This document shows positions 12,915-63,435 of a stretch of 64,000 nucleotides of DNA, one piece after another. The stretch spans positions 23,929 through 87,928 of the forward strand of contig JAFODS010000042.1 in the NCBI GenBank assembly GCA_017380575.1. Direction: 5' to 3'. Source of the DNA: Clostridia bacterium (GTDB taxonomy: Bacteria > Bacillota > Clostridia > Oscillospirales > Acutalibacteraceae). The position numbers and the translations under genes are program-made. A model generated the notes under the pieces. That model saw only the letters and a program-made list of their open reading frames with translations, was not told where the DNA came from and did no database searches. Positions within the stretch are counted from its first letter, which is position 1. Each line of letters begins with the position of its first letter.

Positions 12915-12929
12915 AAAGGAGTTGAAAAT

Positions 12930-39454: not shown

Positions 39455-39457
39455 AAT

Positions 39458-39697
39458 AAATTCGGGTTTGTGGAGATCTTTGATTTCGAACAATCTATCT
39501 CTGAACGTGTAGGGATCGGCCTCCCGGACGGTCCGCAGATTACGCTGAATTAACGGACGGTCGAGGACGCCCATCCCTACGCAGTTGACTAAAACAGGGT
39601 TCGTAGGGGCGATTCACGAATCGACCGTTAAAGCAGAACAAAATTTAAAGGGACGTCGAGGACGTCGTCCCCTACAACAATAATTAAAAATTTGTTT
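39458..39697. repeat. Dispersed inverted-repeat element, copy D
   Basis: It begins AAATTCGGGTTTGTGG four bases after the GH31 stop and shares the modules of copy C, but ends at TTAAAAATTTGTTTT without a clear right terminal repeat. The part GTAGGGGCGATTCACGAATC is a module not seen in copies A-C. Confidence 0.75.
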
Positions 39698-39747
39698 TCC
39701 CCCAAAAATTTATCTGATTGTTTAAATATAAAAAGGAGATGAAATTT

Positions 39748-40955: not shown

Positions 40956-41702
40956 ATGGCAGAGAACAAAAAGAATCCCGCATCCGGTTCACGAATGAGA
41001 ACGATAGAGCTTTTCTACAGACCGGTGTTTGACATTCATCTTAATATGGCGATTGATTTCGAAACGGTAATGAAAATCAACGACAGAATTCAGGGAGTAA
41101 TTCCCGAAAAGGTTTTTATGCCCGTTGCGGAAAAATCCAACCAGGTTGTTCAGCTTAATCTCTGGGCTGTTGAAGAGACCTGCGAAGCAATCAAACGCTG
41201 TGCTGAGCGAGAGGTTGATATGAACAGCGTTATCATCTGGGTTTCGGTTAAAACACTTACAAAGAAAAACTTCGTAACTCAGGTAAAAAAGATTGTCGAT
41301 AAATACGGCATTTCTCCCGACAGCATCTGCTTCAATATTACCGAAAGCATTCTTGAAGCTGTGAAGGACAAAGTCAAGGCAACAATCGACGCTTTGCGTG
41401 AGCTTGAATTCAGAGTTGCAATCGATGACCTCGGACTTGAATATACTTCACTTTCAAATCTTGCTCACTATGATCTTGATTACATCGGAATTCACGAGAG
41501 TATGATTGAAGATATACTTTACAGCGAAAAGGTTCAGAATACGGTTCAGGGTATCATAGATTTCTGTAAAAAGATTGATACACAGGTTATCGTTAACGGA
41601 ATCGAAACAAAGGAAGTTTTTGATTTAATCAACAAGATGGGTGCTGACCGTTTCAGCGGTCCGTACTTCGGAGAGTTTGTTAAAGATAAACAGATAAACT
41701 AA
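40956..41702 (+). CDS. Degenerate EAL-domain protein, first gene of the envelope locus
   Basis: A 248-residue stand-alone EAL fold. YRPVFDIHLNMAIDFETV aligns with the family start, keeping the first glutamate (E36) though EAL reads ETV. FNITES keeps E130, AIDDLGLEY keeps D157-D158, and VNGIE keeps E217. The catalytic lysine motif (usually D-x-K-I-D) reads DYIGIH, and the usual asparagine of the second strand is replaced. Phosphodiesterase activity against cyclic di-GMP is therefore unlikely; a binding or signalling role is more probable. ATG 40956 follows GGAG. The stop is seven bases before the next gene, so it is likely the first gene of the operon. Confidence 0.82.
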   Translation: MAENKKNPASGSRMRTIELFYRPVFDIHLNMAIDFETVMKINDRIQGVIPEKVFMPVAEKSNQVVQLNLWAVEETCEAIKRCAEREVDMNSVIIWVSVKTLTKKNFVTQVKKIVDKYGISPDSICFNITESILEAVKDKVKATIDALRELEFRVAIDDLGLEYTSLSNLAHYDLDYIGIHESMIEDILYSEKVQNTVQGIIDFCKKIDTQVIVNGIETKEVFDLINKMGADRFSGPYFGEFVKDKQIN

Positions 41703-41709
41703 GGAAAGG

Positions 41710-42546
41710 ATGATGGGCTTGGCTAAGAAAAAGAAAAATGCTCCGCCGCCCGGTGCAGAAGTTCCGCAGGGAACCGATGCAATGGGTAAATACGGTGTAA
41801 AATCCGAATCCAAAAAAGTCAAAAAAAGAGAAGCTTTAATCCGTATCCTTACAATTATCCTTGTTTTAATGTTGCTTTTCCTTTCCCTGATGTTCGCTTG
41901 CTCATCGTATGTTAACAAAGCGGGTGACTTCACGGTTACAATGGATAAGGATGCGTACAATATGGGTATCACCCTTTCGGAAAAGGCAGACTTTATGCAG
42001 TCATCGCGTTTCCTCACGGGTGAAAAGTGTGTTGATATGCTCGACACGACGTTGGAGTGGCTTCCCGACGACCTTGACGACATCGACGGCTCACACAACA
42101 ATTCAAACGGACAGAGCTTCCTTGCTTATACGTTCTATGTAAAGAACGGAGGAACTGTTGATGTGAAATATGAAGCAGAAATTCTTATTGATGCTGTTTC
42201 ACTCGGCGTTGACGAGGCAATGCGTGTTATGGTTTTCCGTAACGGCGAACCGACAATTTATGCAAAGCCGCAGAAGGGTACAACGGATAAACGCGAAGAA
42301 AACCTTGATGACAATGGTGTAAGCAGATATCCGATTGACAAAAACTTTGTTTCCAGCACAAAGGTTATGGAAAACAAGGTTGACCTTTTCAGAGCAGGCG
42401 ACATCGATAAATATACAGTTGTTGTCTGGCTCGAAGGATGGGATCCTGAATGTGTTAACAAGATCCTTGAAGGCGAAATCAAAATGTCTATGAAATTCCT
42501 GTGCGAAGAAGCAGATGATAGTGACGGATCATCTGCAGAAGCATAA
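41710..42546 (+). CDS. Membrane-anchored protein sharing the C-terminal motif of the fibre-type subunits
   Basis: A 278-residue protein: Lys/Pro-rich cytoplasmic start, one membrane helix at about 43-63 ending in FACSS, then an extracytoplasmic beta-rich domain and an acidic tail. Its helix does not end in the AWF motif of its neighbours. Near the C-terminus it has YTVVVWLEGWDPEC, matching the RVYIWMEGQDANC and RVYLWMEGNDVDC blocks of the next two proteins. It may be the anchor or capping partner of those subunits. AAGGAAAGG precedes the ATG. No family recognised. Confidence 0.6.
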   Translation: MMGLAKKKKNAPPPGAEVPQGTDAMGKYGVKSESKKVKKREALIRILTIILVLMLLFLSLMFACSSYVNKAGDFTVTMDKDAYNMGITLSEKADFMQSSRFLTGEKCVDMLDTTLEWLPDDLDDIDGSHNNSNGQSFLAYTFYVKNGGTVDVKYEAEILIDAVSLGVDEAMRVMVFRNGEPTIYAKPQKGTTDKREENLDDNGVSRYPIDKNFVSSTKVMENKVDLFRAGDIDKYTVVVWLEGWDPECVNKILEGEIKMSMKFLCEEADDSDGSSAEA

Positions 42547-42648
42547 GAACAGACATCGGGTTTCAAATTCAGGTCTCAGACACATTTGAGATATATATTA
42601 TGACGGATTACCGTACATAAAATCTAAGAAGGAGGTAAAGAAAAGGAC

Positions 42649-43608
42649 ATGTTTAAGAAGAGTCAGAAAAACCGCGCATTTTTTGCAGCTATCGCAATGC
42701 TTCTTCTTTCTGCTATCGTTATAACGACTGCATCATTCGCTTGGTTCTCATTGGGCAGAAGCGCAATGGCAAGCAACCTTGATCTTAAGGTTACAAAGCA
42801 GGGCGAAGGTATCCAGATTTCTGCTAACGCAACATCATTTACGGATACTTTGACATTTGAAGATCTTAACGGTACATCAACAACAGGCTTCCAGGCTGTT
42901 TCGGAAGATTACAACTTCTTCCCTGCTATGATTGAACCCGCATCTTCAAGTTTTGCTCTTAATGCATTGCCGGCATTCTTCACAGGCGGTGTTGATAAGG
43001 CTACAAACACACTTGAAAGCCTTGCAACAACATCTGATAACGGTGTTGATGTTTACGGTAAGTCAGGTACTGAAACTCCTGCAGGCAGCAAGCAGGCAGG
43101 TTACTATGTATTCGACGTATTCGTTGACTATTCAGGCGGCGAGACAGCTCAGCTTAAGATCGGTCAGTCAGACATCACTGTAAAGAATGATGAGTCTGAC
43201 GGAACTCAGGCTATTGCTGAAGCAGCAAATGCTATGCGTATCGGCTTCGTAAATTGTGGTACTGTTACTAAGGGTGCAAATCCTGCACAGGCTACAAGCG
43301 GTTCTGAAGCAGTCATTTTCGCTACCAATGAAGACGCACGCAACACTCAGCCTATCGCAAGTACAGGTATGAGTGCTGAAATTGCAGAAGATGCTTTTAC
43401 TGTTCCCAAGTCATCAGCAGGTGACATCACTATCGCGGATAATTATAACTGCGCTGTTGATACAGGTGCTGAGGATCAGGTTATTAACATCACAAGTGGT
43501 GTTAACCGCATCAGAGTTTATATCTGGATGGAAGGTCAGGATGCTAACTGCACAGACTCTCTCCAGAGCCAGCTCGTTTCTGCAAACCTTGTATTCACAT
43601 TGGTTTAA
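42649..43608 (+). CDS. SipW-dependent-type secreted subunit A (camelysin/TasA-like)
   Basis: A 319-residue secreted protein. A basic start and hydrophobic segment (residues 11-31) end in TASFAWFS, with likely cleavage after A31. The mature part is acidic, Ala/Thr/Ser-rich and has few aromatic residues. IQISANATSFTDTL, FPAMIEPASSS, MRIGFVNCGTV and the C-terminal VYIWMEGQDANC are shared with the next gene. A very strong AAGGAGGTAAAG ribosome binding site and favoured codons suggest high expression. The pattern fits SipW-processed TasA/camelysin-type fibre proteins; homology beyond the signal region is not proven. Confidence 0.7.
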   Translation: MFKKSQKNRAFFAAIAMLLLSAIVITTASFAWFSLGRSAMASNLDLKVTKQGEGIQISANATSFTDTLTFEDLNGTSTTGFQAVSEDYNFFPAMIEPASSSFALNALPAFFTGGVDKATNTLESLATTSDNGVDVYGKSGTETPAGSKQAGYYVFDVFVDYSGGETAQLKIGQSDITVKNDESDGTQAIAEAANAMRIGFVNCGTVTKGANPAQATSGSEAVIFATNEDARNTQPIASTGMSAEIAEDAFTVPKSSAGDITIADNYNCAVDTGAEDQVINITSGVNRIRVYIWMEGQDANCTDSLQSQLVSANLVFTLV

Positions 43609-43837
43609 TTCCCAGGCATTTACTTACTTCTAATTTATGTTTCAGTTACTCCGGGAAGTAATCGGTTGTAAAGTAATTATTCAGCTGAAAATTTTGCAGG
43701 AAGTTTCCTGCAAACCGGGTTACTGGGAAGGCCGAAAAGCTCCCCGGTGAATGGAACATTGATTAGCAAAACTCATGCGTTTAGCGACGCGTTAACGGTC
43801 GCTAAAGCAAAAAAATCTTTATGGAGGTAAAGAAAAA
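43609..43837 (+). other. Untranslated spacer with two hairpins between subunit genes
   Basis: There is no gene. GCAGGAA/TTCCTGC folds at 43696-43711 and TTTAGCGAC/GTCGCTAAA at 43780-43806, the latter followed by GCAAAAAAATCT. The poor T run makes them more likely RNA-processing or stability elements than full terminators. Confidence 0.55.
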
Positions 43838-44764
43838 ATGAAAAACACATTGAAAAAGCGTACCTTTATCTCTGCCATCGCTATGCTTGTTGTATCAGCA
43901 ATCGTGTTGACATCATCAACATTCGCTTGGTTCTCAATGGCTAAGAGAGTTGAAGTTGAGTCAATGGAACTCAACATCACTTCTCCTGACGGTGTGCAGC
44001 TTTCAGCTAACGCTGACGCTTTCACAACAACTCTTACTCTTGCAGACGTCAAGGGTGAAACAACAGCTCGTTGGGCTGCTTATGCAGAAAATCAGAACAA
44101 CTTCCCTGAACTTCTTGTTCCCTCATCATCAACACTTTTCGTTGATAAATCAATGCCTGTATTCTATTCAGGTTCAATCAATGATGCTGGCCGTATCAGT
44201 GCTACTCAGGTAACATCTGATGCTGGCAGCGGTTATGTTGCATTTGACCTTTTTGTTAAGGTTGGTGCAGACCAGAAGGTTTTCTGGAGCGAATCGTCAA
44301 TCACTTGCGAGGACAACCCGGAGGTTGTTTCAGCAATGAGAATGGCAGTTGTAAACTGCGGTACAGTTGCTGCTAAAGCTGAAGCTGCTGCAATTCTTGC
44401 AACAGTTCCTCAGAATGCTCTTCAGAACCGTGTTGCTATGTATGCTCCTCAGGCAGATATTCATACAGACGCTTCAGGCTATGAAGATGGTGCAACAGTT
44501 CCTAACCTTTACATCGATGCTCCTTTCTCAAATCGTACACCGACAGGTAACGGCAACAATATCATGCAGGAGGGCCAGTACTCAAGTGATTCTGTTGGTA
44601 CAAAGGTTTTGGACGGCAACATGGGTACAGAAGCTTACTTCAACGCTTTAACAGGTATCAACCGAATCCGAGTATACCTTTGGATGGAAGGTAACGATGT
44701 TGACTGTGAAAACTCAGTAGCAGGTGCAACAATCGACTTCAATCTTGTATTTACAATTGTTTAA
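43838..44764 (+). CDS. SipW-dependent-type secreted subunit B, paralogue of subunit A
   Basis: A 308-residue paralogue of the preceding protein. The hydrophobic segment ends SSTFAWFSMAKR, with cleavage expected after A30. VQLSANADAFTTTLTL, FPELLVPSSST, MRMAVVNCGTV and INRIRVYLWMEGNDVDC are shared blocks. The two cysteines conserved between the paralogues (one in VNCGTV, one in the C-terminal motif) may form a disulfide. TATGGAGGTAAAG precedes the ATG and is almost identical to the ribosome binding site of subunit A. It is probably a second structural subunit. Confidence 0.7.
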   Translation: MKNTLKKRTFISAIAMLVVSAIVLTSSTFAWFSMAKRVEVESMELNITSPDGVQLSANADAFTTTLTLADVKGETTARWAAYAENQNNFPELLVPSSSTLFVDKSMPVFYSGSINDAGRISATQVTSDAGSGYVAFDLFVKVGADQKVFWSESSITCEDNPEVVSAMRMAVVNCGTVAAKAEAAAILATVPQNALQNRVAMYAPQADIHTDASGYEDGATVPNLYIDAPFSNRTPTGNGNNIMQEGQYSSDSVGTKVLDGNMGTEAYFNALTGINRIRVYLWMEGNDVDCENSVAGATIDFNLVFTIV

Positions 44765-44965
44765 TTTATTTAGTCAATTGTGAACGAAAAAATCTTCCCG
44801 CAGAGCAGGAGCTCTGCTCTGCGGATTACCGTCACAAATTCACGGGTGGCGATTTTGTCATCGTCACCCGAGTAAATCCAAAATGCCGAAAGGCGATTTA
44901 TGAGCATTCGCAGAGTGCTTATAAATGACCTTTTAGTCAAATAAAATCAGGAGTGAATGTAAAAA
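44765..44965 (+). other. Untranslated spacer with two strong hairpins after subunit B
   Basis: CCGCAGAGCAG/CTGCTCTGCGG (44798-44824, 11 bp) and CGGGTGGCGAT/ATCGTCACCCG (44843-44870) lie in a row without T runs. They may protect the upstream subunit mRNA or reduce readthrough into the peptidase gene. Confidence 0.55.
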
Positions 44966-45694
44966 ATGAAAAACAAACTTAAAAAGGTGCTTGAAGTCGT
45001 TTCGGACGTGCTTCTTGTATTCATCCTCATTATTGCGATTGTCATTACTGTTATGACCTTCACATCAAAGAATTCGGACGTCGGTGTTGGTAACGTTTTC
45101 GGTTATACCCCCTTCACAATCCAGTCTGACTCAATGAAGCCCGCTTTCGCAACAGGCGATATGATTATCGCTAAGGAAGTTAAAAACGTAAACGAGCTTA
45201 AAATCGGTGACGTTATCACTTATACAACCGTTCTTACAGACAGCGAAGGCAGAAGCATTAGAGGTAACAACACCCATAGAATCCTCGATATTGTTTATAA
45301 CAAGGACGGCACAATCAATAACTTCGTCACAAAGGGTGACGCGATAGATATGGAAGATACCGTGCCCGTTACACCGGACTCAATCCTCGGTAAGCAGATC
45401 AATTCAGGTTACGACGAAAGCGGAAATCTGAGAGAAGGACTTAAGATTGTCGGCCTCGGCCATGCACTTCAGTTCCTTCAGAGCCGTACAGGATTTATGA
45501 TCTGTATCATCATTCCGCTTGCACTTTTCTTCATCTGGCAGATTTATAAGCTCATTATGATGTTTATGGAAGCTAAGGCAGAAGACATCGATGAAGAAAC
45601 AAAGCGCCGCGCAATTGCTGAATACCTCGCTGAGCAGGAAGCTCTTAAAAAGGCAGAGGGCGAAGCAAAAGCATCTGATGAAACAGATAAATAA
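44966..45694 (+). CDS. SipW/ER-type signal peptidase I (S26B), locus copy 1
   Basis: A 242-residue membrane serine peptidase. There is an N-terminal membrane helix (15-32), catalytic Ser in QSDSMKP (S56), His instead of the bacterial Lys in NTHRIL (H104) and Asp in TKGDA (D125), plus a second helix near 175-195 and a charged C-terminal tail. Ser-His-type peptidases such as SipW process TasA and similar fibre proteins. It directly follows the two subunit genes, its likely substrates. CAGGAGTG precedes the ATG. Confidence 0.9.
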   Translation: MKNKLKKVLEVVSDVLLVFILIIAIVITVMTFTSKNSDVGVGNVFGYTPFTIQSDSMKPAFATGDMIIAKEVKNVNELKIGDVITYTTVLTDSEGRSIRGNNTHRILDIVYNKDGTINNFVTKGDAIDMEDTVPVTPDSILGKQINSGYDESGNLREGLKIVGLGHALQFLQSRTGFMICIIIPLALFFIWQIYKLIMMFMEAKAEDIDEETKRRAIAEYLAEQEALKKAEGEAKASDETDK

Positions 45695-45757
45695 CATTCA
45701 CAACCTGTACAATATATAACTCAGATTTTAACTAACTTTTTAAAGGGTGACTGAAAG

Positions 45758-47323
45758 ATGATAGTAACAAAATTCATTGCAGAGTTCTTAAATCAATTTT
45801 TCATAAAAGGTGTTTGGGGAATCTTTAAAGGTATCGGCCTCGGTATTGCCAATATCTTCAACGTTCCCGAATACATAAGCATTTTCAAATCATGGTCAGG
45901 CGACTTCACAGCTGTTGACTGGGTTCTTGCAATCCTCACAGTTATTGCAACTGTTGTTGTTCTTGCAGCGATTGTTCTTCTTGTTGTTGTGCTTGTTAAG
46001 AAGTACATCAGAGTCCGCAGAACACTTGTTGACCAGGAAGAGCTTCTTAACGAAGTCGGCAACCTCAACAGAGAAATCATCAAGCTTCATAACGAAAAGG
46101 AAAGAATCCTTGCAATGAAGGTTTCTCAGCTCGGTCTTAAGCCCGGCGAAAGCTCATTTATTGAAACAGCAGAAGAAAACACTCAGGGCGAAGAGAGCAC
46201 AGAGAAGAAAGAAGACGGTGAAATCGACAAGTCAGCAGACGACTACAGCCGTTTCTACAAGTGTACTCAGGTTGATATCGAGCTTGAGGATTACGTTGCT
46301 CCCGAATACGACAACGAAATCACACTTCCCGAAATCTGTGATATGTTCCGCAACTACGCTTGTTCAAGACTTGGTCTTTTCTACGAAATCAAGGTTATCC
46401 GCCTTTTCCTTTCAGCATTTGCTTCAACTCGACTTATTATCCTTCAGGGTATTTCAGGTACAGGTAAAACTTCACTTGCTTACGCTTGGGGTAAGTTCCT
46501 TCAGAACCCTGTAACAATCGCATCAGTTCAGCCGTCATGGCGTGACCGTACTGAAATCTTCGGTTACTTCAACGAATTCACAAAGCGATTCAACGAAACA
46601 GAAGTTCTTAAGAAGATGTACGAAGCTACATTCAAAGAAGATATCTTCATCACTGTTCTTGACGAAATGAACATCGCTCGTGTTGAGTATTACTTCGCTG
46701 AGCTTCTTTCAATCCTCGAAATGCCGTCACGTGATGAATGGGTTGTTTCGCTCGTTCCCAGCGTATGGCCGACTGACCCGAAGCACGTTATCGACGGTAA
46801 GCTCAAGCTTCCTGAAAATATGTGGTACATCGGTACAATCAATAACGACGACTCAACATTCGCCGTTTCCGATAAGGTTTATGACCGTGCTATTCCGATT
46901 GACCTTAACAGTAAGGGTAAATTCTTCGAAGCACCGTACACAGAAAACCTTACACTCAGCTATAAGCACCTTGAAGATATGTTCAGAGACTGCCAGACAA
47001 AGTACAAGGTTTCTGACGAAAATCTTAAGAAAATCGAAGAGCTTGACGACTATGTTATCGAACATTTCCGTCTTGCATTCGGTAACCGTATTGTTAAGCA
47101 GCTCAAGGAATTCGTTCCTGCTTACGTTGGCTGCGGCGGTACAGAAATCGACGGTATCGACTTCGTTCTTGCAAAGAAAGTTTTCCGTAAGTTCGAAAGC
47201 TTGAACCTTTCATTCATCCGTGATGAAATCGACGGACTTGTTACTTACCTTAACAAGCACTTCGGTAAGGCTAACATGAACGAATGTAAAGAATACCTCC
47301 AGCTTCTTAAGAGACTTATGTAA
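45758..47323 (+). CDS. Membrane-anchored McrB-like AAA+ ATPase
   Basis: A 521-residue protein. An N-terminal hydrophobic region includes a strong helix at about 54-80 (VLAILTVIATVVVLAAIVLL), then a coiled coil (EELLNEVGNLNREIIKLHNE) and an acidic linker. The AAA+ domain has Walker A QGISGTGKTS near residue 231, Walker B TVLDEMNIARVEYYFAELL near 298 and sensor-1 GTINNDDST with a following DRA. DEMN and this insertion pattern are typical of McrB-type GTPase/ATPases. Membrane anchoring and a setting among secreted fibre-like proteins are unusual for that family. The partner gene follows 36 bases later. Confidence 0.85.
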   Translation: MIVTKFIAEFLNQFFIKGVWGIFKGIGLGIANIFNVPEYISIFKSWSGDFTAVDWVLAILTVIATVVVLAAIVLLVVVLVKKYIRVRRTLVDQEELLNEVGNLNREIIKLHNEKERILAMKVSQLGLKPGESSFIETAEENTQGEESTEKKEDGEIDKSADDYSRFYKCTQVDIELEDYVAPEYDNEITLPEICDMFRNYACSRLGLFYEIKVIRLFLSAFASTRLIILQGISGTGKTSLAYAWGKFLQNPVTIASVQPSWRDRTEIFGYFNEFTKRFNETEVLKKMYEATFKEDIFITVLDEMNIARVEYYFAELLSILEMPSRDEWVVSLVPSVWPTDPKHVIDGKLKLPENMWYIGTINNDDSTFAVSDKVYDRAIPIDLNSKGKFFEAPYTENLTLSYKHLEDMFRDCQTKYKVSDENLKKIEELDDYVIEHFRLAFGNRIVKQLKEFVPAYVGCGGTEIDGIDFVLAKKVFRKFESLNLSFIRDEIDGLVTYLNKHFGKANMNECKEYLQLLKRLM

Positions 47324-47359
47324 TTTTAAGCTAATCAATTCTCAAAGGGGAAATAATCC

Positions 47360-49537: not shown

Positions 49538-49580
49538 TTATTAAACTCACCGTTGCGACGGTTTCGGAGGAAAAGAAAGT

Positions 49581-55500: not shown

Positions 55501-56789
55501 TCGCAGGAAATCTTGACGGTAACGGCTTTGTTCTTCATGACTATTCGGGAGCAAGCCTCTTCGGCAGAGTAAGCGGTGTGCTTACAAACGTCGGTTTCGC
55601 AGGCTTCAATGTTACGGATGGTGAATCAGATTCAGTCGGTGCAGTTATTGCTGTAATTGACGGCGGTACTGTTGAAAGCTGTTTCGTAATTGCTCAGGTT
55701 AATGCAAACGGCACAAAGCAGGATGCAGGTATCCTTGCAGGCCGTGCAATCAACGGTGCAGTTATTAAGAATACCGTAACAAGCGGTAAGGTTATCAGCG
55801 AAAACGGTTTTGCAGCAGGTGGTGTTGTCGGTTCTGTAACAAATGCAGAAATCCTCAACGTAACTTCAACTGCATATGTTCTCGGCGGCAAGTCTGTCGG
55901 CGGTATCGTGGGTGAAGCTTCATTCGCAACTCTTGACGGAGTAATCTTTGCAAATATGGTTGAAGCTGACGGCAAGTCAGGCAACATCATCGGCACGGCA
56001 AATGAGAACGTGAAGGTTGCAAATGCTTACTGTGATTCAAGAATTTCACGAACAGAAAATAACGAGGACGCAGTTACTGCTCTTACAACCGAAAAGCTTA
56101 TCAGAGCAAAGGTTAACGGATTCGTTTCACTCGGCGGTTATCCCGTTCCCGAAACAATCGCAAAGAACGGCTCTGCGAAGTTCGCAACAGGCGTTCAGTT
56201 TGCTGCAATGACAGTAAGATACCTTGCAGGCTTAAGTGCAGGTACAGTTTATAATTACACAGACATCGTTGTTGACCCGACGGTTAATTCAAACGAAGTC
56301 AAGCTTGAAAAGACTCCGGACGTTAAGGTAACTCTTCTTCCGACAGCTGATTATGCAGGCACAAAGAACGAAGTTGCTCGTTATATGAATCCGCTTGAGT
56401 CAAGTGCGGTTGACGTAAGCTGCACAATCGTTGCAGACGAAAAATCAGAAATCGCAGACGAGCTTATCGGTGTAATGCTTAAAACAAAGGTCGGCGAAGA
56501 TTCAACGGCATTTGACTTCTTCACAACGGCAGAAGCTCAGCCTGTTGATATTGCAGCTGTTACACTTGCAGACGGTGCTCTTTACGTAAATATGCACCTT
56601 CCTGCAGGCTACGGATTCAATGTTGTTGCTGTTGACGAAAACGGCAATACACTCGCAACTCAGGATGTTGCAAACGAGGGCATCCTCGTAAATGCACAGG
56701 GTGCAAAGTCAGTTTCTCTCACACTCTCACTCGTTGAAGAGGAAGAGGTCTGGGGTCTCAGAAGCATCTGGAGTGCAATCGGAAAATAA
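49581..56789 (+). CDS. Giant secreted surface protein with five GLUG-type modules
   Basis: A 2402-residue protein. Signal peptide at 1-30 (ending IVSSLA), then a Ser/Thr linker (34-66). Five modules each open with a G-x-G-[TS]-x-x-x-P-[FY] type block: GNGTKENPFRIS (91), GDGSATNPFVVM (about 523), a degenerate EASGRYVIN (about 856), GKGTASMPYLIK (about 1458) and GNGTKENPYRIA (about 1927). Each continues with short repeats of the G-x-[VI]-x-[ND]-x-x-V kind and GGVVG/AGIVG turns, fitting GLUG beta-helix repeats. There is no LPxTG or membrane anchor; the end is EEEEVWGLRSIWSAIGK. It is likely an adhesin or matrix component. GGAGG precedes the ATG. Confidence 0.82.
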   Translation: MLRRRFEQVAVMLLSIVMLVTSTGIVSSLATTDVNESSVAPSTSSTQSSTSSTASSTTESTSTSTVTQEGGAITPPSVEQEGGAIVVIDEGNGTKENPFRISTTEQFLSLGGKVNNTANADKYFVLTADIDLSGVSGSDFAKNGGSLVGIDKQLASTSANVFINLDGNGYTLKGLNVEIASGNAASIFGTLNEKSSIRNLKIEKPVMKSTSAEMADIALIATVNKGTVSGVTVTYPVLTAENAMNTAFIVAENYGTVSDVTVKGKHTNISAASAENHTISATGNVGAVAGLNHGTISNASAINIGMFIPAVESAVVYGGIAGCNSGSVLNSVATGNVMGGKSADTVGGVVGKAVKGASGSEITSTLTNNYSLVAISSSVTGNGIIGADGKAEMVKDCFWSGEVSGKNTMLSDYGCGVDELNFRQFSLIPQGKKAVLSSNGVKSTSWGKATFELDGEITVKGDGVSASANGNAVEITATASGKVATATYNTKITLPANVGSSSAGNTLKQHFRVQLLTVAKDAKGDGSATNPFVVMSAGDFNLLRYAPGMNIVLGKDITVNSRATAIKGTVDGNGYTINTAKPLASAVYGNVKNLNVIVTADLSTAVLGNAINASVNNVRVAMAEGVSLKANTNNSGILFNRIAAGTVIDSALVKGNVTIVEDKLSSIGAFAGLIDGDKVVIRNSGAVADIVAEKDITSADTAIFAGKVAGNEVSITDGYVGGENLAGKYAFIGTVSGKKLTVKNIYTDLASEEFASFDGFDKNQFKAWSFDGGNVGFFTGNGGKFTATLPEIKAFGSTDSGDYSVICDASKLIATVNVEGGKLVLNVQRAAGVITVKSIPVTVVNTKTGLSATINVSNGLEKEASGRYVINSAFDLAYVSENIAELSNASFIMKSDVDMAELSSFSPIGSAEVSFSGTFDGNGKTVSNLAIDGNAKVGLFAVLDGATVKNLKFADAKVSSDGGYVGVLAGQVTGNAKISGITVENATVTSADLYASAVIGSIDGTENTVSVSDITVKNSSVKSESSYVGAVAGRINTKAQLSSVVVDSFKAEGANYISGVAGLLQGEASISNVNVSKAEISGVSEISGIASGNGTIRSAFVKDSEVSTIAISSAFTAGGISAVFAGTVENVTVENVKVSAGVAAGIVGKTVADNNLTIKNASVKACEVSSAEANTVAAGILGVHNTNGTVAISGATADEATVISGAAVSAGLVGDCSGAESILSLADSKTLATVNGALTANAVSAAGALGRIGISAVNNVTVSGVKVGGSVSGAGVLGGLIGIITDGTKFKASAPIVSDSIVFAQLSEENAESAALIIGAVNEDIFASTDISSAVNGVVLSTYGGMKAYSSDSLDGGYTDMNSGITPSAEALTTKSETTITLSGLPKVNGFVFDSATGWISESEERISVVSSTEDSLVLKANRPAYISIRAYYVLSADEQIRIPVEFTIVANVTEPLEGKGTASMPYLIKDAYDLEAMAEYADQKAYFVLAEDIVLTDADYEFGGSFYNVGNGIVTIGNTEVAFNGNFSGLYGGKIHSITGLRMNGKTFGGLFGATDGAVITDLVINGADITASADAGVLIGRANDTTIKNVTVNNAKVVTTQSGSVAGGLVGIAQSTIIEDVTLNNVEVSTTLDSTSATLEIAGGAAGVYDGLIKNSELNNVTVVSGTVAGGVIGAVKAEPANIVNVDADVNVKADFAGGFAGRISAPKALSVNGSVVRGKVEGAKVASGVIAQISSENAGDAFDKLNRNLVTETVVTAKIKGGDGKALVIGEVSEAVAVDSENVKNDVFLNVYYSSYQNDLGAFGAEQFNAYRNSEYAVTDLSSLAYKVGESVYETVELTTEFATLPENSIVLNNATGTYKSFTAGGRVFNLENITSDVEGLVEYKAENSAVRLTSTVNESAKLVFVYSGGLEIAIGITSDEALQGNGTKENPYRIATADDFGFMLNNSNEGKYYVLTNDISLAGFEGGADFAGNLDGNGFVLHDYSGASLFGRVSGVLTNVGFAGFNVTDGESDSVGAVIAVIDGGTVESCFVIAQVNANGTKQDAGILAGRAINGAVIKNTVTSGKVISENGFAAGGVVGSVTNAEILNVTSTAYVLGGKSVGGIVGEASFATLDGVIFANMVEADGKSGNIIGTANENVKVANAYCDSRISRTENNEDAVTALTTEKLIRAKVNGFVSLGGYPVPETIAKNGSAKFATGVQFAAMTVRYLAGLSAGTVYNYTDIVVDPTVNSNEVKLEKTPDVKVTLLPTADYAGTKNEVARYMNPLESSAVDVSCTIVADEKSEIADELIGVMLKTKVGEDSTAFDFFTTAEAQPVDIAAVTLADGALYVNMHLPAGYGFNVVAVDENGNTLATQDVANEGILVNAQGAKSVSLTLSLVEEEEVWGLRSIWSAIGK

Positions 56790-56811
56790 ATGAAAGGGGG
56801 TTGATGCAGCT

Positions 56812-57441
56812 ATGAAAAAGTATTCATCTCTGATTAAAAACTTAATAATGGTAGTGGCATCAGCCCTTACTCTTGTTGCTGTTTCTTTCGCTTGGTTTAC
56901 CAGCAGCTTTTCAACAAACCTTGATCAGTATGAGGTTGCTGTCGGCGGAGACACAATCAAGGTAGATTATTATCAGCTGGATGATGCCGGTGCTTATCAG
57001 CCGTTGCCCGGTGATATTGAACTTAAGGATTTTGTTCCGGGTAAATTCAACAAATATAAGTTCGATATAACAACAAAAACAGCGGATAAGCTTAATCTCA
57101 AGTTTGAAATTTCGGGCATTCCCGAGGAAATGTCGGAAGCACTCAAAAATTCAGTGCAGATAAAGTATTCGGTCTGGTCACAAAAAAAGCAGACAACAGG
57201 CGGAACGGTTTCGTATGTTGATTCTGAATGTATTTCTCAGCCGGATAATTACGCATCTCTTTCAGATATTAATAACGGTGTGATTATCAATTCGCTTTCA
57301 CTCGGAAATTATCAGACAACAGCATCGGACAGATTTGCAATTTATTATGAAATCGGTCTTTCGGAGAATGCACCGCCTGAAATCAGCGGTCTTGAATCCT
57401 CTCTCGGAAGTATCAAAATAAGTGCACAGCGTATCAGTTAA
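56812..57441 (+). CDS. SipW-dependent-type secreted protein C
   Basis: A 209-residue protein whose hydrophobic segment (8-27) ends in AVSFAWFT, with cleavage expected after A27. The mature part is beta-rich: VGGDTIKVDYYQLDD, FKDFVPGKFNKYKFDI-like block and a closing LGSIKISAQRIS. Such a short strand-rich mature domain with a lead-in on how components attach (YKFDITTKTADKLNLKFEI) resembles camelysin/TasA-like domains. It stands 22 bases after the giant gene, and the next gene, a signal peptidase, begins three bases after its stop. Confidence 0.68.
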   Translation: MKKYSSLIKNLIMVVASALTLVAVSFAWFTSSFSTNLDQYEVAVGGDTIKVDYYQLDDAGAYQPLPGDIELKDFVPGKFNKYKFDITTKTADKLNLKFEISGIPEEMSEALKNSVQIKYSVWSQKKQTTGGTVSYVDSECISQPDNYASLSDINNGVIINSLSLGNYQTTASDRFAIYYEIGLSENAPPEISGLESSLGSIKISAQRIS

Positions 57442-57444
57442 AAG

Positions 57445-58044
57445 ATGAAGAAACTCAAGAGTATTTTAACACGTGTTTTTACCGCCTTTTCGGCTTTGCT
57501 TTTCGTTTTCGGACTTGTTGTTTTTGTATGTGTCCTGAACGCTTCCGCAGGTAAGGTGCCGAGCGTTTTCGGCTTCAGCCTTCTTCAGGTGCAGACGGGA
57601 AGTATGGTTCCCGAATACGAAATCGGAACGGTGGTTGTAACAAAAAAAGTCGACGCAAGGGAGCTTGCGGTTGGCGATGTAATCAGTTTTTATTCCTTGG
57701 ATAAGGATATTTCGGGAAAGGTTAATACCCACCGAATTGTCGAAATTGAGCATGGCGGTGACGATAATGCACCGTATTTCACAACGAAAGGTGACCATAA
57801 CGACGAGGTCGATAGGACTAAGGTCTGGCCGTCACAGCTTGTCGGAAAGGTCGTTTATGACCTTGGCACGGTAAGCGGTTCGTTTATCGGAGTTTTCCGT
57901 AATCCGAACGTGATTTTCTTTGTTATTGTTCTTCCGTTGATTTTCATTACATTCGGCGAAGCCGTTAATCTTGTCAGCTTGATTGCTGAAAGCAAATTTC
58001 AGAAAAAGGAAGATAAAAATGGCGACCCCGAAGAAAAAAATTAG
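57445..58044 (+). CDS. SipW/ER-type signal peptidase I (S26B), locus copy 2
   Basis: A 199-residue membrane peptidase: N-terminal helix (13-31), Ser in QTGSMVP (S53), His in NTHRIV (H96), Asp in TKGDHND (D117), and a C-terminal helix (FFVIVLPLIFITFGEAV). It starts three bases after the stop of secreted protein C, which is probably its substrate, and overlaps the next peptidase gene by 26 bases. Confidence 0.9.
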   Translation: MKKLKSILTRVFTAFSALLFVFGLVVFVCVLNASAGKVPSVFGFSLLQVQTGSMVPEYEIGTVVVTKKVDARELAVGDVISFYSLDKDISGKVNTHRIVEIEHGGDDNAPYFTTKGDHNDEVDRTKVWPSQLVGKVVYDLGTVSGSFIGVFRNPNVIFFVIVLPLIFITFGEAVNLVSLIAESKFQKKEDKNGDPEEKN

Positions 58045-58525
58045 TGCAATGCTGACAGCGGTTGTTCTGCTGTTTTCGCTTGTTGCAGTCGGTATAGTCT
58101 GGTTTCCGTCAATCCTTGGCTACAAGGCATATGCAATCGAAACGGGAAGTATGGCACCGATAATTCCTGAAGGCAGTATGGTTTACGTTAAACCCTGCAG
58201 TAATTTTGAAGATTATCAGGTGAACGATGTTGTCACCTTTACAGATGATATAAAAAACCAAAGCTTTACCCACAGAATTGTTGCGATTGATAAGGACGAT
58301 TATCTTTTCACAACAAAGGGTGATGCAAACGAAATCGAAGACCTTGAACCGACATCAGCTTCCTTGGCTGTCGGAAAGGTAAAAATGGCAATTCCCTTGC
58401 TCGGCTATGTTGCTTCTGCACTGAAGCACACGGCTGCAAAAATTATAATCGCAGTTTTCTACGTTGCCTGGGCAGCGATAGAAATTGAACTATTTTTAAC
58501 GGAAAGGAAGAAAAGATATGATTAA
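58019..58525 (+). CDS. SipW/ER-type signal peptidase I (S26B), locus copy 3
   Basis: A 168-residue peptidase with helix 9-28, Ser in ETGSMAP (S44), His in FTHRIV (H85) and Asp in TKGDAN (D102). I start at ATG 58019 (MATPKKKISAML), inside the end of the previous peptidase gene; an earlier in-frame start would overlap further. The C-terminal helix is followed by a basic end (ERKKRYD). Two adjacent peptidases of the same type suggest division of labour among substrates. Confidence 0.88.
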   Translation: MATPKKKISAMLTAVVLLFSLVAVGIVWFPSILGYKAYAIETGSMAPIIPEGSMVYVKPCSNFEDYQVNDVVTFTDDIKNQSFTHRIVAIDKDDYLFTTKGDANEIEDLEPTSASLAVGKVKMAIPLLGYVASALKHTAAKIIIAVFYVAWAAIEIELFLTERKKRYD

Positions 58526-59168
58526 AAGAATAATAATGCTTGTTGCTTCCTTGGCCGTTGTGCTCGGACTTATAACATCGGGAAGCTCTTACGCCTGGTT
58601 TGCTTCTTCTTCACAGCGTAATCAGAGTATTTCTGTTTCGGTTGTAAGTAACGTTTTTTCTTCAGATATTTCAGATCTGATTCCCGCTGAAAATACAATC
58701 ATTATGCAGGGCGACAACCTCATAAATGTTGACGGAAATTCAGCAGCGCTTCAGATTGAAAACCATTCAACAACAGACACGCAGGTGCGTGTTTCAATCG
58801 AATACACAAGCTACCGCACGGGTAGCCCGAGGCAGGTTGTTTACTCTGCAAGTGAGGAAGACGATATCATCGTTGAATTCGCAACGGATGCCTGGGCAAA
58901 GGATGTCAATATCGGCGGTGTGAGCTACTTCTATTATGTCGGAAATTTCTACGGTTCAGCAACGGTTTCGGATATCGATTCCTTGCCTGCAATTTCCGCT
59001 CTTGTCGGCAAGATTCCCGTAATTTCAAAAATTGCCTATAAGGACGATATCTCCAGTGCGTACTCAGGCAAAAAGATAAACGTGAAGGTTTCTTTTGAAT
59101 CCAAGCAGGCTGAAAATGTAACCTGGTCTTCAATCGACAGCTACGACGTTTCAGGTATCGGCAAATAA
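58518..59168 (+). CDS. SipW-dependent-type secreted protein D
   Basis: A 216-residue protein whose N-terminal hydrophobic segment ends GSSYAWFASS, with cleavage expected after A26. The mature part begins QRNQSISVSVVSNVFSSDIS and contains ALQIENHSTTDTQVRVSIEYTS, a strand pattern like that of camelysin domains (loss of a lone TM, bearing N-linked beta sandwich features is not implied). It overlaps the end of peptidase copy 3 by eight bases and is followed 13 bases later by peptidase copy 4, so it sits between two candidate processing enzymes. Confidence 0.68.
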   Translation: MIKRIIMLVASLAVVLGLITSGSSYAWFASSSQRNQSISVSVVSNVFSSDISDLIPAENTIIMQGDNLINVDGNSAALQIENHSTTDTQVRVSIEYTSYRTGSPRQVVYSASEEDDIIVEFATDAWAKDVNIGGVSYFYYVGNFYGSATVSDIDSLPAISALVGKIPVISKIAYKDDISSAYSGKKINVKVSFESKQAENVTWSSIDSYDVSGIGK

Positions 59169-59181
59169 GGAGCGCTGAAAA

Positions 59182-59697
59182 GTGAAAATCCGTATCAGAA
59201 ATGTTTTGTTTAATTTCTTTGCAATCCTGACTTTGGTTGCGGTTGTGTTTATCGGTTTCAATCTTTTTTCAGGTGCGAAGGGTTATGCCGTAACAAGCCC
59301 CAGTATGGAGGACACGCTTGTCCGCGGCGACATCGTTTTTGTAAAGGCTGTAAGCTTCGAAGAGCTTAAGGTCGGCGATGTTGTGACCGTACGCTCAACG
59401 GACGGGAAGTATTTTTTCACTCACCGTGTTGTCGGAATTGACGGTAAAAACCGAACGGTGACAACAAAGGGCGATGCAAACAATTCGGACGACCCGATGC
59501 CGAGCGAAGCTGAAAGAATTGTCGGAAAGATGTGGTATAAGGTTCCGCTTCTCGGTTATTTTTCAATCCTTTTCCTTAATTTCTCACGTTCAACAGGATT
59601 AATAATCCTTGCAGTGGTTGCTGTTGCACTTGTTGCAATCAACTCTGCGGTAATAAAAACAAAATCCAAAAAGAAGCGAGGTGACAGCGATGAGTAA
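59182..59697 (+). CDS. SipW/ER-type signal peptidase I (S26B), locus copy 4
   Basis: A 171-residue peptidase: helix 10-28, Ser in TSPSMED (S41), His in FTHRVV (H81), Asp in TKGDANN (D98), then a C-terminal helix and a basic end. The start is GTG 59182, with AAGGAG upstream and no alternative ATG. It overlaps the next secreted protein gene by eight bases, again pairing peptidase and putative substrate. Confidence 0.9.
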   Translation: MKIRIRNVLFNFFAILTLVAVVFIGFNLFSGAKGYAVTSPSMEDTLVRGDIVFVKAVSFEELKVGDVVTVRSTDGKYFFTHRVVGIDGKNRTVTTKGDANNSDDPMPSEAERIVGKMWYKVPLLGYFSILFLNFSRSTGLIILAVVAVALVAINSAVIKTKSKKKRGDSDE

Positions 59698-60322
59698 AAT
59701 AAGAAAAATATCTGCCGTAATTATGGCTCTTGTTCTTGTTATGTGTGTCGGATATTTTTCCTTGATGTCAACAACATCAGCGTGGTTTTATAACAGCGGT
59801 GTAATTGACAGCGGAGATACATTTATTTTCGGTGACTTGTCGGTGGATACCTCTTTCAATACAAAGTCAAAAGTTGTGTTCAACGGTGCAACAAAGTTTG
59901 CGGACAAGGACGAAGTTCTTTTTGACAAGGTTGTAAATGTCGAAGAAATTTCGGTTTACAATTCAGGTACAATTCCTGCAAGAATTTATGCAGACGCTGT
60001 CAACACAGGAAGCGGTGAAGGCTTCCGCTGGTTTTTCTTCTCGGATGCAACAGCTGTTGACGGAAGTGTAAAAAAGACAATCGAAGCTTCTCTTCCCGAA
60101 CTGACGGATGAGGCACTTAACGCATATAACGTCGGTGAAGACGGAAACAGCGGACACTACATACTCCTTAATCCGGGCGAAATCACAACGGTGAAAATCG
60201 CATCATGGATTGAGTACGATGAAGTGAAGGATGAGCTTAAAGGCTCGGCTACCCTCGACTCCTACGATATTGAATTCACTTTGATTTCAACTCAGGACGT
60301 TGACGGTGCGGCAGAAAGATAA
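59690..60322 (+). CDS. SipW-dependent-type secreted protein E
   Basis: A 210-residue protein whose hydrophobic segment ends STTSAWFYNSG, with cleavage expected after A31. The mature part (DTFIFGDLSVDTSFNTKSKV, then NVEEISVYNSGTIPARIYADAV) carries the statement-like camelysin pattern of strands around an N-S-G-T turn. ISYDIEFTLIST-type strand closes it. I start at ATG 59690, with GAGGTGACAG upstream, rather than an earlier in-frame codon inside the peptidase gene. Confidence 0.68.
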   Translation: MSKIRKISAVIMALVLVMCVGYFSLMSTTSAWFYNSGVIDSGDTFIFGDLSVDTSFNTKSKVVFNGATKFADKDEVLFDKVVNVEEISVYNSGTIPARIYADAVNTGSGEGFRWFFFSDATAVDGSVKKTIEASLPELTDEALNAYNVGEDGNSGHYILLNPGEITTVKIASWIEYDEVKDELKGSATLDSYDIEFTLISTQDVDGAAER

Positions 60323-60340
60323 AAAGCGAGGTGAACAGGG

Positions 60341-60955
60341 ATGTTGCATAAACTTAATAAAAAGGCAGTTGTAATAATCGTTGCAATCGTTGCGCTTGTT
60401 GCAGTTGTCGGTTCTTCATTTGCTTGGTTTGTATCCCGCACATCCTTGCTTCAGAATTTCAGCCTCAGCTCTTTCGAAGTCAGTGCAGATGTTTACTTCC
60501 TTGACGGTGAAGAAAAAGTAAGTGCTGACGAATACAAGGATGAAAACGGACTTTATACCCTCAGCCTGAATAAGGACGACGTGAATTATCTCGGAAACCT
60601 TCGTGCAAACGTTGCCCACAGCGGTGCAAAGGCCTGTGTCCGTGTTACAATGAATCATCAGTGGACTCTCGCAGACGGAACGGTTGCACAAAATGCAGTT
60701 GCAGTTCCTTACGTGTTTGCGAACGGCTGGTTTGATAACCGCGATGCGGACTATTCAGTTTACTATGCAGGCGAAGATATTTCGGGCGAAGCATCATTCA
60801 GAACTGCAGAGTTCATAACAGGTTTTGATGAAAAGAGCTTTGACGCTTCTGCAATCGTTGAAGGCGTAACTCTTAAGGTTCTCGTTCAGGTCGATGCAGT
60901 TCAGGTTAACCGTTATCCGCAGGTGTGGGGTATCGAAAAATTTCCTTGGGAATAA
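60341..60955 (+). CDS. SipW-dependent-type secreted protein F
   Basis: A 204-residue protein with a basic start and hydrophobic segment ending GSSFAWFVSR, cleavage expected after A28. The mature domain (FSLSSFEVSADVYFLDGEEKV, LGNLRANVAHSGAKACVRVTMNHQW in outline) has the strand pattern and single Cys of the other members. It ends VWGIEKFPWE. A GCGAGGTGAACAGGG ribosome binding site lies upstream. Peptidases of the locus should process it. Confidence 0.68.
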   Translation: MLHKLNKKAVVIIVAIVALVAVVGSSFAWFVSRTSLLQNFSLSSFEVSADVYFLDGEEKVSADEYKDENGLYTLSLNKDDVNYLGNLRANVAHSGAKACVRVTMNHQWTLADGTVAQNAVAVPYVFANGWFDNRDADYSVYYAGEDISGEASFRTAEFITGFDEKSFDASAIVEGVTLKVLVQVDAVQVNRYPQVWGIEKFPWE

Positions 60956-60970
60956 GGGAAGCTGATTTTT

Positions 60971-61864
60971 ATGTCTGATAAGAAAAAGAAGCCTGCGGCA
61001 GGTAAGTCTGTCGCAGGCACAACTAATTCAGGGAAGAATATCCCGAACAAATCAAAAAAAGAGATTGAAAAAAAGAAGGCCGAAGCCGCAAAACAGGCAC
61101 AGCGTGTGCAGGAAGAAAGGCTTAAGGCTGAGCGTGAGCGTGCGAAAAAGAGCGAGGATATCCGCAAACGCCGTGAAAAGCAAAAGGCAAAGGACGAAAA
61201 AAACGAGAAGAAAGTCCTCGGCAAAGAAAAGCGTTCAAGTGAACTGAAAAAACTTGCGGAGCTGTTTAAAAAAGTCTGGGCAAAGGTAAGCTATTACACA
61301 AGCAAGGAATTTCTCGGCTCGTTCAATTACACCCGAATAATTCTTTTTGTAGTTCTGCCGATAGTTGTTCTTGTTTTCGGAATATCTGTGCTTACTCACG
61401 CGACGGTTTTCAATGTTCCTTCCGAAATCAGAAATTATGAATTTAACGGCAGAATTGAAAGCAGTGTTATTGCGAAGGAATCTGCATTCAACTCGCAGCA
61501 GCAAAATGTTTTCATCGAAACTCTTGATGCAAAGGGAAGCGGAAAGTTTGATTTTTATATCAATTCTTCAATTCCTGTCGGCGATAACGGGGAGATAGAG
61601 GAGCTTTGCTTCGGCAATCCTAACGAAGAGGATTATGTCCTTGTTGCAACCGTTTTTGACAAGGAGGGCGAGGTGCTTTACCGTTCACTCGGAATTGAAA
61701 GCGAAAAAGAAATCAACGAAGTGAAGCTTTTCAAAGAAGTTGCATACGGCACCCACAGAGTGAAGGTTGCCGTCAATGCATACGATAAAGAAACAAATAA
61801 AAAGATCGGAACAAAATATGCTCACGTTAAGCTGAGCGTCGGTGTTGATGAAGATGTCAGATAA
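60971..61864 (+). CDS. Membrane-anchored protein with a charged cytoplasmic coiled coil
   Basis: A 297-residue protein. Residues 1-120 are cytoplasmic and rich in Lys/Glu/Arg (EERLKAERERAKKSEDIRK), probably coiled coil. A membrane helix spans about 122-141 (RIILFVVLPIVVLVFGISVL), followed by a beta-rich extracytoplasmic domain of 150 residues. The charged coil resembles that of the DUF2357-like protein, so the two may interact and connect the cytoplasmic ATPase pair to the outside. There is no AWF motif. No family recognised. Confidence 0.6.
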   Translation: MSDKKKKPAAGKSVAGTTNSGKNIPNKSKKEIEKKKAEAAKQAQRVQEERLKAERERAKKSEDIRKRREKQKAKDEKNEKKVLGKEKRSSELKKLAELFKKVWAKVSYYTSKEFLGSFNYTRIILFVVLPIVVLVFGISVLTHATVFNVPSEIRNYEFNGRIESSVIAKESAFNSQQQNVFIETLDAKGSGKFDFYINSSIPVGDNGEIEELCFGNPNEEDYVLVATVFDKEGEVLYRSLGIESEKEINEVKLFKEVAYGTHRVKVAVNAYDKETNKKIGTKYAHVKLSVGVDEDVR

Positions 61865-62345
61865 AAAACCAAAACTGAAAATTGCTGTAGTCATTGCGGT
61901 TTCTCTGCTCGCAATCGTTCTGTCAACGCTGACCCTTGTTCAGGCGGTGCCGAAAATACGGCTCAGCTTGGCACAGGGCGGAGAGGTCTGTGACGGTGTC
62001 CTGCCCGATGTTGACGAAAGTCTGCATATAACGGAAGTTCCCGAAGGCGAAATCCGCTATCTTATAAACAAAAAGATTGTTTTTGAAAATCCGTATGCTC
62101 AGGGCGATGTAATGCTCGAAAATCCCGAAAGCTGCGGGTACGATCTGCAGTTTATGATTTATAATGCAAAGGGCGAAATGATTTACACTTCACCGATGAT
62201 AAAGCCGGGACAGTATCTTGAAAAGGATAAGCTTTCCGCAGTCGTCGGCAAAGGCGAATTCAAATGCTCCTACACCGCACAGGCATATTCGGACGGTGAA
62301 TATCAGGGCGAGGTTAACGGTGTCCTGACTGTTCTGGTAAAATAG
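61854..62345 (+). CDS. Small membrane-anchored extracytoplasmic protein, last gene of the locus
   Basis: A 163-residue protein with a short basic start (MSDKKPKLKI), one membrane helix at about 9-30 and an extracytoplasmic domain (VPEGEIRYLINKKIVFENP, YDLQFMIYNAKGEMIYTSPMIKPGQY). The domain's KG-E-x-[IV]-Y-x-S strand motif resembles part of the preceding protein (DKEGEVLYRSLGI), so the two may be related. I start at ATG 61854, overlapping the previous stop by 11 bases, because the MSDKK start mirrors the previous protein; ATG 61848 is also possible. It ends the plus-strand locus. Confidence 0.6.
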   Translation: MSDKKPKLKIAVVIAVSLLAIVLSTLTLVQAVPKIRLSLAQGGEVCDGVLPDVDESLHITEVPEGEIRYLINKKIVFENPYAQGDVMLENPESCGYDLQFMIYNAKGEMIYTSPMIKPGQYLEKDKLSAVVGKGEFKCSYTAQAYSDGEYQGEVNGVLTVLVK

Positions 62346-63393: not shown

Positions 63394-63435
63394 TTTGAAA
63401 ACCTCCGTTAGCATTGTCATTTTTTAACCTATAAG

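Follow-up and report, generated by a model that had tools for sequence, protein, structure and literature searches.

A CoCoPALM-type gene cluster in a Clostridia bacterium that may export and assemble SipW/TasA-like surface proteins

We analyzed a 64-kilobase (kb) stretch of the genome of a gut Clostridia bacterium (64,000 nucleotides; GenBank assembly GCA_017380575.1, contig JAFODS010000042.1, positions 23,929 to 87,928), hereafter the window, and within it a unit of 17 genes that all lie on the forward strand between positions 40956 (ATG) and 62345. The unit encodes a degenerate EAL protein, six proteins whose hydrophobic N-terminal segment ends in Ala-Trp-Phe (AWF proteins), four Ser-His signal peptidases of the S26B family (S26a to S26d), three further anchored proteins (anch1 to anch3), a McrB-like nucleoside triphosphatase (NTPase), a DUF2357 protein and a giant repeat protein. 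We tentatively favor the reading that this is a CoCoPALM-type cluster, which would export and assemble SipW/TasA-like surface proteins and be organized by a repurposed McrBC-type NTPase. All the genes named in the original prediction were present, in the order it gave. Its proposal of a system of about 15 genes stood as far as a conserved unit is concerned, while the word "undescribed" did not, since the core appears, from its sequence, to match the CoCoPALM arrangement that a 2024 eLife paper briefly names (PMC11090510).

Linkage of the NTPase pair with signal peptidases and AWF genes

The linkage was measured around the best 80 of 574 relatives in named genomes, so that the NTPase clade was pre-selected and the flanking genes were not; by class label, these loci comprised 71 Clostridia, six Bacilli, one Erysipelotrichia and two without class. 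An S26B gene was found in 78/80 loci, within 1.5 kb of the NTPase in 75/80 and on the opposite strand in none, and a DUF2357 gene was found in 77/80; the five misses were contigs ending no more than 0.6 kb from the NTPase on one side. In the 46 loci whose flanks reached 5 kb or more on each side, S26B and DUF2357 genes were each detected in 46 and an AWF gene in 45, and at least two AWF genes were present in 38, at least two S26B genes in 36, an anch1-type gene in 38 and an EAL-type gene in 23. The sole full-flank locus lacking the AWF pattern (L131) had FAKY/YAWL-type signals instead. AWF-type open reading frames (ORFs) in the 80 loci numbered 190 on the coding strand (1904 ORFs) versus 16 on the other strand (2091 ORFs), and much the same gene order recurred in Clostridia and Bacilli. 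In a second set of 20 loci from further relatives, counted by profile search, all 20 had DUF2357, 19 had S26B and 15 showed the AWF pattern, with a short contig (L044) among the members without it. This co-occurrence bears out the predicted envelope or extracellular system with peptidase/subunit sets.

A search of 198 relatives returned 37 genomes with a McrB match, of which G046, G063 and G065 (E values from 1.5e-25 to 4e-4) were left out, giving 34 genomes with an NTPase orthologue. S26B scored above its curated cut-off in 96/198 relatives and matched at E ≤ 1e-3 in 150, including all 34 orthologue genomes and 116 of the other 164. Since S26B and AWF genes are common outside the NTPase genomes, they form a wider module. 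The NTPase pair is an addition to this module and is hardly ever seen apart from S26B. Within the genus, the NTPase was found in 15/17 other genomes, and the cluster or its downstream half in 16/17; G001 had the downstream half only, its contig beginning inside the giant gene, and G017 had neither an NTPase nor an S26B match. Outside the genus, the NTPase was patchy (18/180 relatives).

Some loci were arranged differently. The Christensenella-type loci L091, L100, L109, L112 and L114 had the order NTPase-S26-DUF2357-S26 and not S26-NTPase-DUF2357. In L119 (8955-9989), L121 (8999-9976) and L131 (8783-9772), a protein of 325-344 residues stood directly 5' of the NTPase and no EAL-type gene was seen, so this protein may substitute for the EAL protein; in the same three loci, the hydrophobic segment of the small anchored proteins ended in YAKY/FAKY and not YAWF, perhaps an alternative SipW-type site.

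Components of the cluster

The family profile of the NTPase matched solved McrB chains (E. coli McrB) at E 7e-8, and a transmembrane segment (TM) was present, in agreement with the membrane McrB-like ATPase that had been proposed. Walker A, Walker B and sensor motifs were kept in all 81 NTPases (80 loci plus the window), as was N.D[DE], and N-N-D-D was found in 80/81; NNDD by itself would fit NxxD too, and GTINNDD aligned in register with the GTVN.D[ED] of soluble relatives. An N-terminal TM, next to which a coiled coil was read from the alignment, occurred in 81/81 tethered NTPases versus 0/29 soluble relatives. Moreover, the tethered proteins separated from the soluble NxD McrBs with support 100 in a FastTree tree of sequences pre-selected by similarity, in which long outgroup branches were flagged. 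The soluble comparison took in 29 loci out of 50 matched genomes other than the source, plus one viral contig, and S26B was found in 0/29 within flanks of 1.5 kb each. The 50 genomes came from a 398-genome sample of the phylum, where McrB relatives at E ≤ 1e-20 scored at most 141 bits versus 918 for the window's own NTPase.

The DUF2357 assignment also held: residues 1-360 matched PF09823 above the cut-off, a domain present in 38/39 family members compared, and the whole protein, charged tail included, matched no Pfam family. The tail in the window comprises 385 residues (27% K, 22% A, 21% E); it is of low complexity, and the coil was judged from its composition. In 12 loci, including all six labeled Bacilli, the tail was absent and the whole protein was only 362-381 residues long, indicating that DUF2357 is the conserved part and that a nuclease would not fit. 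No nuclease family (PD-(D/E)xK) was among the 25 listed of the 28 Pfam families matched with 39 DUF2357 domains, and the DUF2357 sequence search matched no solved McrC. The DUF2357 proteins of L080, L083, L095, L115, L128 and L133 ended in similar IGIYFYRG-like segments past the coil, perhaps an additional domain.

All four predicted Ser-His signal peptidases scored over the curated cut-off of TIGR02228 (64.5-87.1 versus 51.85 bits) and below that of NF046067, the Bacillus SipW equivalog (58.4-83.3 of 190 bits). The peptidases upstream and downstream in the loci formed two position-specific lineages, with three label changes versus 37.5 in shuffles on a tree with 117 labeled rows, and one well-supported set of this tree held 45/49 downstream and 3/68 upstream peptidases, together with S26c and S26d of the window. 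A cytosolic-tail motif, [AEVIK]xEY[LIV], was found in 50/68 upstream peptidases, 6/47 downstream ones and 1/23 from NTPase-free loci, suggesting the conserved tail of the upstream peptidase as a candidate dock for the NTPase/DUF2357 pair.

Among window ORFs of at least 80 residues, A[WY]F came after a hydrophobic segment only in the six AWF proteins, as predicted, and A-W-F was found in 0/93 ORFs of this size outside the locus. The site has Ala at P1, an aromatic residue at P2 in 5/6, Trp at P1' and Phe at P2'; the signal consensus of the AWF1/2 type is ATYAWF. The corresponding passages of Musik et al. (PMC10269814) describe a TasA site in which P2 is Trp and P2' is Phe; it is cut by SipW, an endoplasmic reticulum-type Ser-His peptidase, and poorly by LepB. 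Because the AWF proteins fit this rule, we read A-W-F as a SipW-type site, with the predicted cut before Trp. The mature parts were compared, profile to profile, with a set of PF12389 relatives, with reversed sequences as controls and L206 left out. AWF4 and AWF5 matched this set (81.4% and 73.9%; reversed controls, 0.2% and 0.1-0.2%), whereas AWF3 and AWF6 reached 4.6% and 19%. A single family for all AWF proteins was sought by sequence and not found, as families A3 (AWF1/2), A4 and A5 have only the signal in common. Solved-structure searches with these three gave nothing significant; the top A3 match, 'Pilin' 7UEG at E 4.3, was not used. The signal model TIGR04088 matched 8/34 A3 members at E ≤ 1 (best, 0.0046).

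The first anchored protein, anch1, matched the mature part of A3 (probability 98.7, E 4e-16) and shares with AWF1/2 a C-terminal W-EG-D--C signature; its match to the TasA set was 50%, versus 0.9% for the reversed query. No cleavage motif followed the TM in 55/57 anch1 orthologues (best ORF per locus, score of at least 80, 57 loci), and the SYF seen in the other two looks accidental. As a subunit relative without a cleavage site would stay in the membrane, anch1 is a candidate base or seed of a fiber. The paralogues anch2 and anch3 (98.1%) showed no link to TasA.

The giant protein had the predicted length of 2402 residues, and its GLUG character was borne out in part: GGIAG-type repeats numbered 12 versus a mean of 1.2 in shuffles, and the Pfam GLUG family was not among its matches at E ≤ 1. 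Seven large or SLH-bearing neighbors from other lineages were scanned; three had no match, and four had surface-type domains (InlB-type repeats, a BspA-type leucine-rich repeat, CBM26, and SLH with transglutaminase). The window protein occupies the place of these giant neighbors and is a candidate adhesin. The starch-binding CBM26 belongs to a large cluster protein at L133 (16796-19339) and hints at attachment to food particles.

The EAL protein was degenerate, as predicted. When compared with 2R6O, five of eight catalytic positions were changed (N, E of ITE, K, E of EG and Q to W, N, G, N and S), and none of 33 aligned rows kept more than four of eight, with K kept in four and N in one. GGDEF matches numbered two in the source genome and three in G001, and none was found in 15 congeners (G002-G016; all with the NTPase; assemblies 61-97% complete). 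The retention of the pseudo-EAL protein in congeners with no GGDEF match makes a general role as receptor of cyclic di-GMP (c-di-GMP) unlikely, and it would probably act as a non-catalytic partner rather than a c-di-GMP sensor. Control by c-di-GMP through this protein was thus downgraded, on account of the changed catalytic positions and the congeners with no GGDEF match. The source genome also has a second, higher-scoring EAL protein, and a 637-residue frame with EAL and GGDEF domains was observed at G000:C69:6-1220 (L223).

The genes of the unit are listed in Table 1. Intergenic gaps ranged from -29 to 229 nucleotides (S26c counted from 58016) and were mostly a few bases or overlaps, the widest (102-229 nucleotides) flanking AWF1 and AWF2; the genes may be co-transcribed. 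The limits of the unit were set by comparison with relatives. The nine-gene order from AWF3 to anch3 was kept in 13/14 stretches (13 from the same genus, one from another), the exception being L199, of the other genus, without S26c; the PduL gene 3' of the unit in the window took the same position in 4/14. At the other end, the order EAL-anch1-AWF-S26a-McrB-DUF2357 was found in all four congeners compared, and a Gfo/Idh-like gene 5' of the unit in two. Identity to the window in these four was 81-93% for the NTPase, 77-95% for the DUF2357 domain, 29-74% for AWF1-3 and 31-57% for the giant protein, which we counted in favor of our reading; in the closest congener, L189, AWF3 was 64% and part of the giant protein 81% identical. 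Both flanks look metabolic, with a GH31-like hydrolase and the Gfo/Idh-like protein upstream (37502-40722, by eye) and the PduL phosphotransacylase downstream (62818-63420). A promoter and terminator scan, compared with shuffles, gave no excess of promoter-like sites (31 versus 28.6) and 34 versus 20 terminator-like sites, mostly on the opposite strand, to which we give no interpretation.

Table 1. Genes of the unit, with positions in the window and the basis of each assignment.
Feature	Position	Strand	Basis
Pseudo-EAL protein	40956..41702	+	PF00563 E 3e-46; ATG 40956, ORF opens at TTG 40941
anch1, anchored AWF1/2 relative without A-W-F site	41710..42546	+	profile match to A3 mature part
AWF1, SipW-type signal SFA|WF, large mature domain	42649..43608	+	hydrophobic segment and motif
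AWF2, AWF1 family	43838..44764	+	hydrophobic segment and motif
S26a, upstream-lineage Ser-His signal peptidase, cytosolic tail EETKRRAIAEYLAEQ	44966..45694	+	TIGR02228 64.5 bits
McrB-like NTPase: N-terminal TM, coiled coil and AAA, NxD motif NNDD	45758..47323	+	coil read from sequence
DUF2357 (McrC N-domain) protein, ~385-residue K/A/E/R-rich tail	47360..49537	+	PF09823 E 1.8e-10
Secreted repeat protein, 2402 residues, GLUG-like, candidate adhesin	49581..56789	+	repeat counts
AWF3	56812..57441	+	hydrophobic segment and motif
S26b, downstream-lineage peptidase	57445..58044	+	TIGR02228 70.8 bits
S26c peptidase, ATG 58019	58019..58525	+	TIGR02228 87.1 bits
AWF4, distant TasA/camelysin relative	58518..59168	+	mature-domain profile match 81.4%, E 1.2e-5
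S26d peptidase	59182..59697	+	TIGR02228 86.4 bits
AWF5, distant TasA/camelysin relative	59681..60322	+	mature-domain profile match 73.9%, E 2.8e-5
AWF6	60341..60955	+	hydrophobic segment and motif
anch2: charged N-terminal segment, TM and outer domain	60971..61864	+	anch3 paralogue, 98.1%
anch3, anchored, final gene of the unit	61842..62345	+	anch2 paralogue

Proposed working and alternative explanations

In the working that we propose, the AWF proteins would be exported by Sec, and each peptidase would then free the neighboring subunits, of which the TasA-like ones may polymerize via strand exchange. The uncuttable anch1 would remain behind as the base of the fiber, and the giant protein would act as an adhesin on or beside it. 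At the inner face of the membrane, the McrB-like protein would form a ring, which its own TM would anchor and the nuclease-free DUF2357 protein would switch. This ring would organize and gate export by gripping the upstream peptidase at the cytosolic EYLA tail of that enzyme, and nucleotide hydrolysis may time or power the hand-over of subunits. The strongest form of this idea, in which a McrBC-lineage NTPase is the motor or gate of a fiber machine that grips the peptidase and couples hydrolysis to ordered TasA-like assembly on an uncleaved base, seems to us possible but unlikely. We know of no motor for SipW-type fibers.

Several observations weigh against export and assembly organized by the NTPase. 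The cluster is known here from its genes alone and not from a fiber, transcript or protein. Its link to TasA is partial: PF12389, the TasA/camelysin family, had no match in the source genome, and TIGR04088, the SipW-cognate signal, had one, below the cut-off (12.9 of 19 bits); the AWF1/2 family, which adjoins the NTPase, resembles TasA in the signal only (mature part, 6.4%), and no mutual match was detected between AWF4 and AWF5. Among the peptidases, three of the 68 upstream enzymes group with the downstream set, and the tail motif was picked post hoc, after inspection of the data; a stricter version occurred in 33/68 upstream and 6/47 downstream peptidases, four of the latter six being from Christensenella-type loci, with the peptidase between the NTPase and DUF2357. 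Nor is the linkage complete. L045, L046 and L050 had S26B and no AWF pattern. In L052, two tethered NTPases and DUF2357 stood beside large anchored or secreted proteins, and S26B and AWF genes were both missing from the 20 kb; the pair is thus able to exist without the peptidase. Conversely, 14/20 sampled S26B loci of NTPase-free genomes had a same-strand neighbor with an A-x-[FY] signal (by eye, with a looser pattern), so the NTPase is not required for the basic chemistry. The expectation of the original prediction that the genes co-occur elsewhere thus mostly survived: peptidase and AWF genes do occur without the NTPase, and the pair without S26B only in L052, contig ends aside. In that locus (9653-14351, reverse strand), the two McrB-like NTPases, 45-48% identical to the window NTPase, flank the DUF2357 gene and are followed by an anchored protein of 186 residues and two of 1292 and 1338 residues.

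One alternative is a scaffold role. The NTPase and the DUF2357 coil would then place the export site (at a pole, the septum or one side) or switch it, and the subunits would polymerize unaided, as in SipW-TasA; we regard this as rather unlikely. S26B/AWF modules that stand alone in other genomes are consistent with it, as are the company of giant surface-type proteins only in L052 and a DUF2357 tail that many Clostridia have in a long form and 12 loci lack, as expected of a spacer or tether; a passage of PMC11090510 also compares the TM/coil region with FtsB. However, the conservation of Walker A, Walker B and sensor motifs in every NTPase goes beyond what a passive scaffold needs.

A defense system, in which a membrane-tethered McrBC relative senses infection and the exported proteins serve as shield, decoy or effector, we consider improbable. 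McrB ancestry, a match to the PADLOC candidate PDC-M26A (E 1e-35), the patchiness of the NTPase outside the genus and the proposal, in the relevant passages of PMC11090510, that the related CoCoNuTs are an RNA-targeting defense all point that way. We downgraded this explanation because no nuclease was seen, the shortest DUF2357 proteins being too short for one, because nearly the whole genus has the cluster or its downstream part, between metabolic-looking flanks, and because no close viral or plasmid copy was found: a single viral contig gave a match, to a McrB piece of 29% identity, and the 264 plasmid records gave partial matches below 60% identity, none covering 80% of the query.

It is likewise improbable that these are plain SipW/TasA-like matrix or adhesin proteins that are secreted and form no fibers, while the NTPase regulates their quality control or expression. 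The mature domains are diverse, with a clear TasA link in AWF4 and AWF5 only, which agrees with such a role, and the membership of anch1 in the AWF1/2 family without a cleavage site, as an assembly base would have it, speaks for fibers. Finally, an NTPase and DUF2357 protein whose genes just happen to lie among surface-protein genes, and which work elsewhere, on nucleic acids, would suit the McrBC homology and the peptidase-free L052, but the S26B adjacency from Clostridia to Bacilli, the TM in all tethered NTPases and the tail on the adjoining peptidase make this very improbable.

If export and assembly under a McrBC-type NTPase are confirmed, a nucleic-acid restriction motor became a cell-surface machine, and gut Clostridia and Bacilli own a fiber or adhesin system that annotation easily overlooks, since 0/6 AWF proteins of the window reach any Pfam or NCBIfam cut-off. 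The uncleavable base, the peptidase tail and the two peptidase lineages are each directly testable.

Comparison with known systems

The pseudo-EAL protein shares with EAL phosphodiesterases a sequence match across the whole domain, and differs from them in its catalytic positions and in being retained in genomes where no GGDEF match was found. McrBC type IV restriction and CoCoNuT systems share with the cluster the AAA core of McrB and the activator domain DUF2357, whereas the pair in the window is membrane-tethered, shows no nuclease and lies inside a surface-protein cluster.

To our knowledge, the SipW operons of Bacillus have neither McrB nor DUF2357. The SipW-TapA-TasA, SipW-CalY and sipW-bsaA matrix-fiber operons (Bacillus, Clostridium perfringens) resemble the cluster in that a SipW-type peptidase adjoins subunits with an aromatic-flanked Ala site, and AWF4 and AWF5 are distantly TasA-like. 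These operons have fewer peptidases and subunits than the window cluster, and the main text of the C. perfringens sipW-bsaA paper makes no mention of McrB or an ATPase. TasA subunits assemble by a donor-strand mechanism, as described in the pertinent part of PMC9674648.

CoCoPALM is the closest relative. Among the papers listed by searches of the mostly non-subscription literature, PMC11090510 and its preprint alone used the name in this sense, and no further account of McrB with SipW or a signal peptidase appeared. The main-text passages of that paper present CoCoPALM as a McrB with a TM and coiled coil, accompanied by a McrC homologue and signal peptidases, describe the NxD form of McrB for CoCoNuT and CoCoPALM, and call the coiled coil on the CoCoPALM McrC homologue usual and not universal. 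The window cluster agrees with this in its NxD McrB-type NTPase, which joins a TM to a probable coiled coil, in its DUF2357 protein with a coil of its own and in the adjoining signal peptidase genes. SipW-type substrates, TasA relatives, an uncleavable subunit relative, a pseudo-EAL protein, giant adhesins, two peptidase lineages and the peptidase tail are absent from those passages; relative to them, the substrates, the anchor, the tail and the lineage structure are new. CoCoPALM, a system named without a known function, thereby gains a likely job, substrates and points at which it can be tested.

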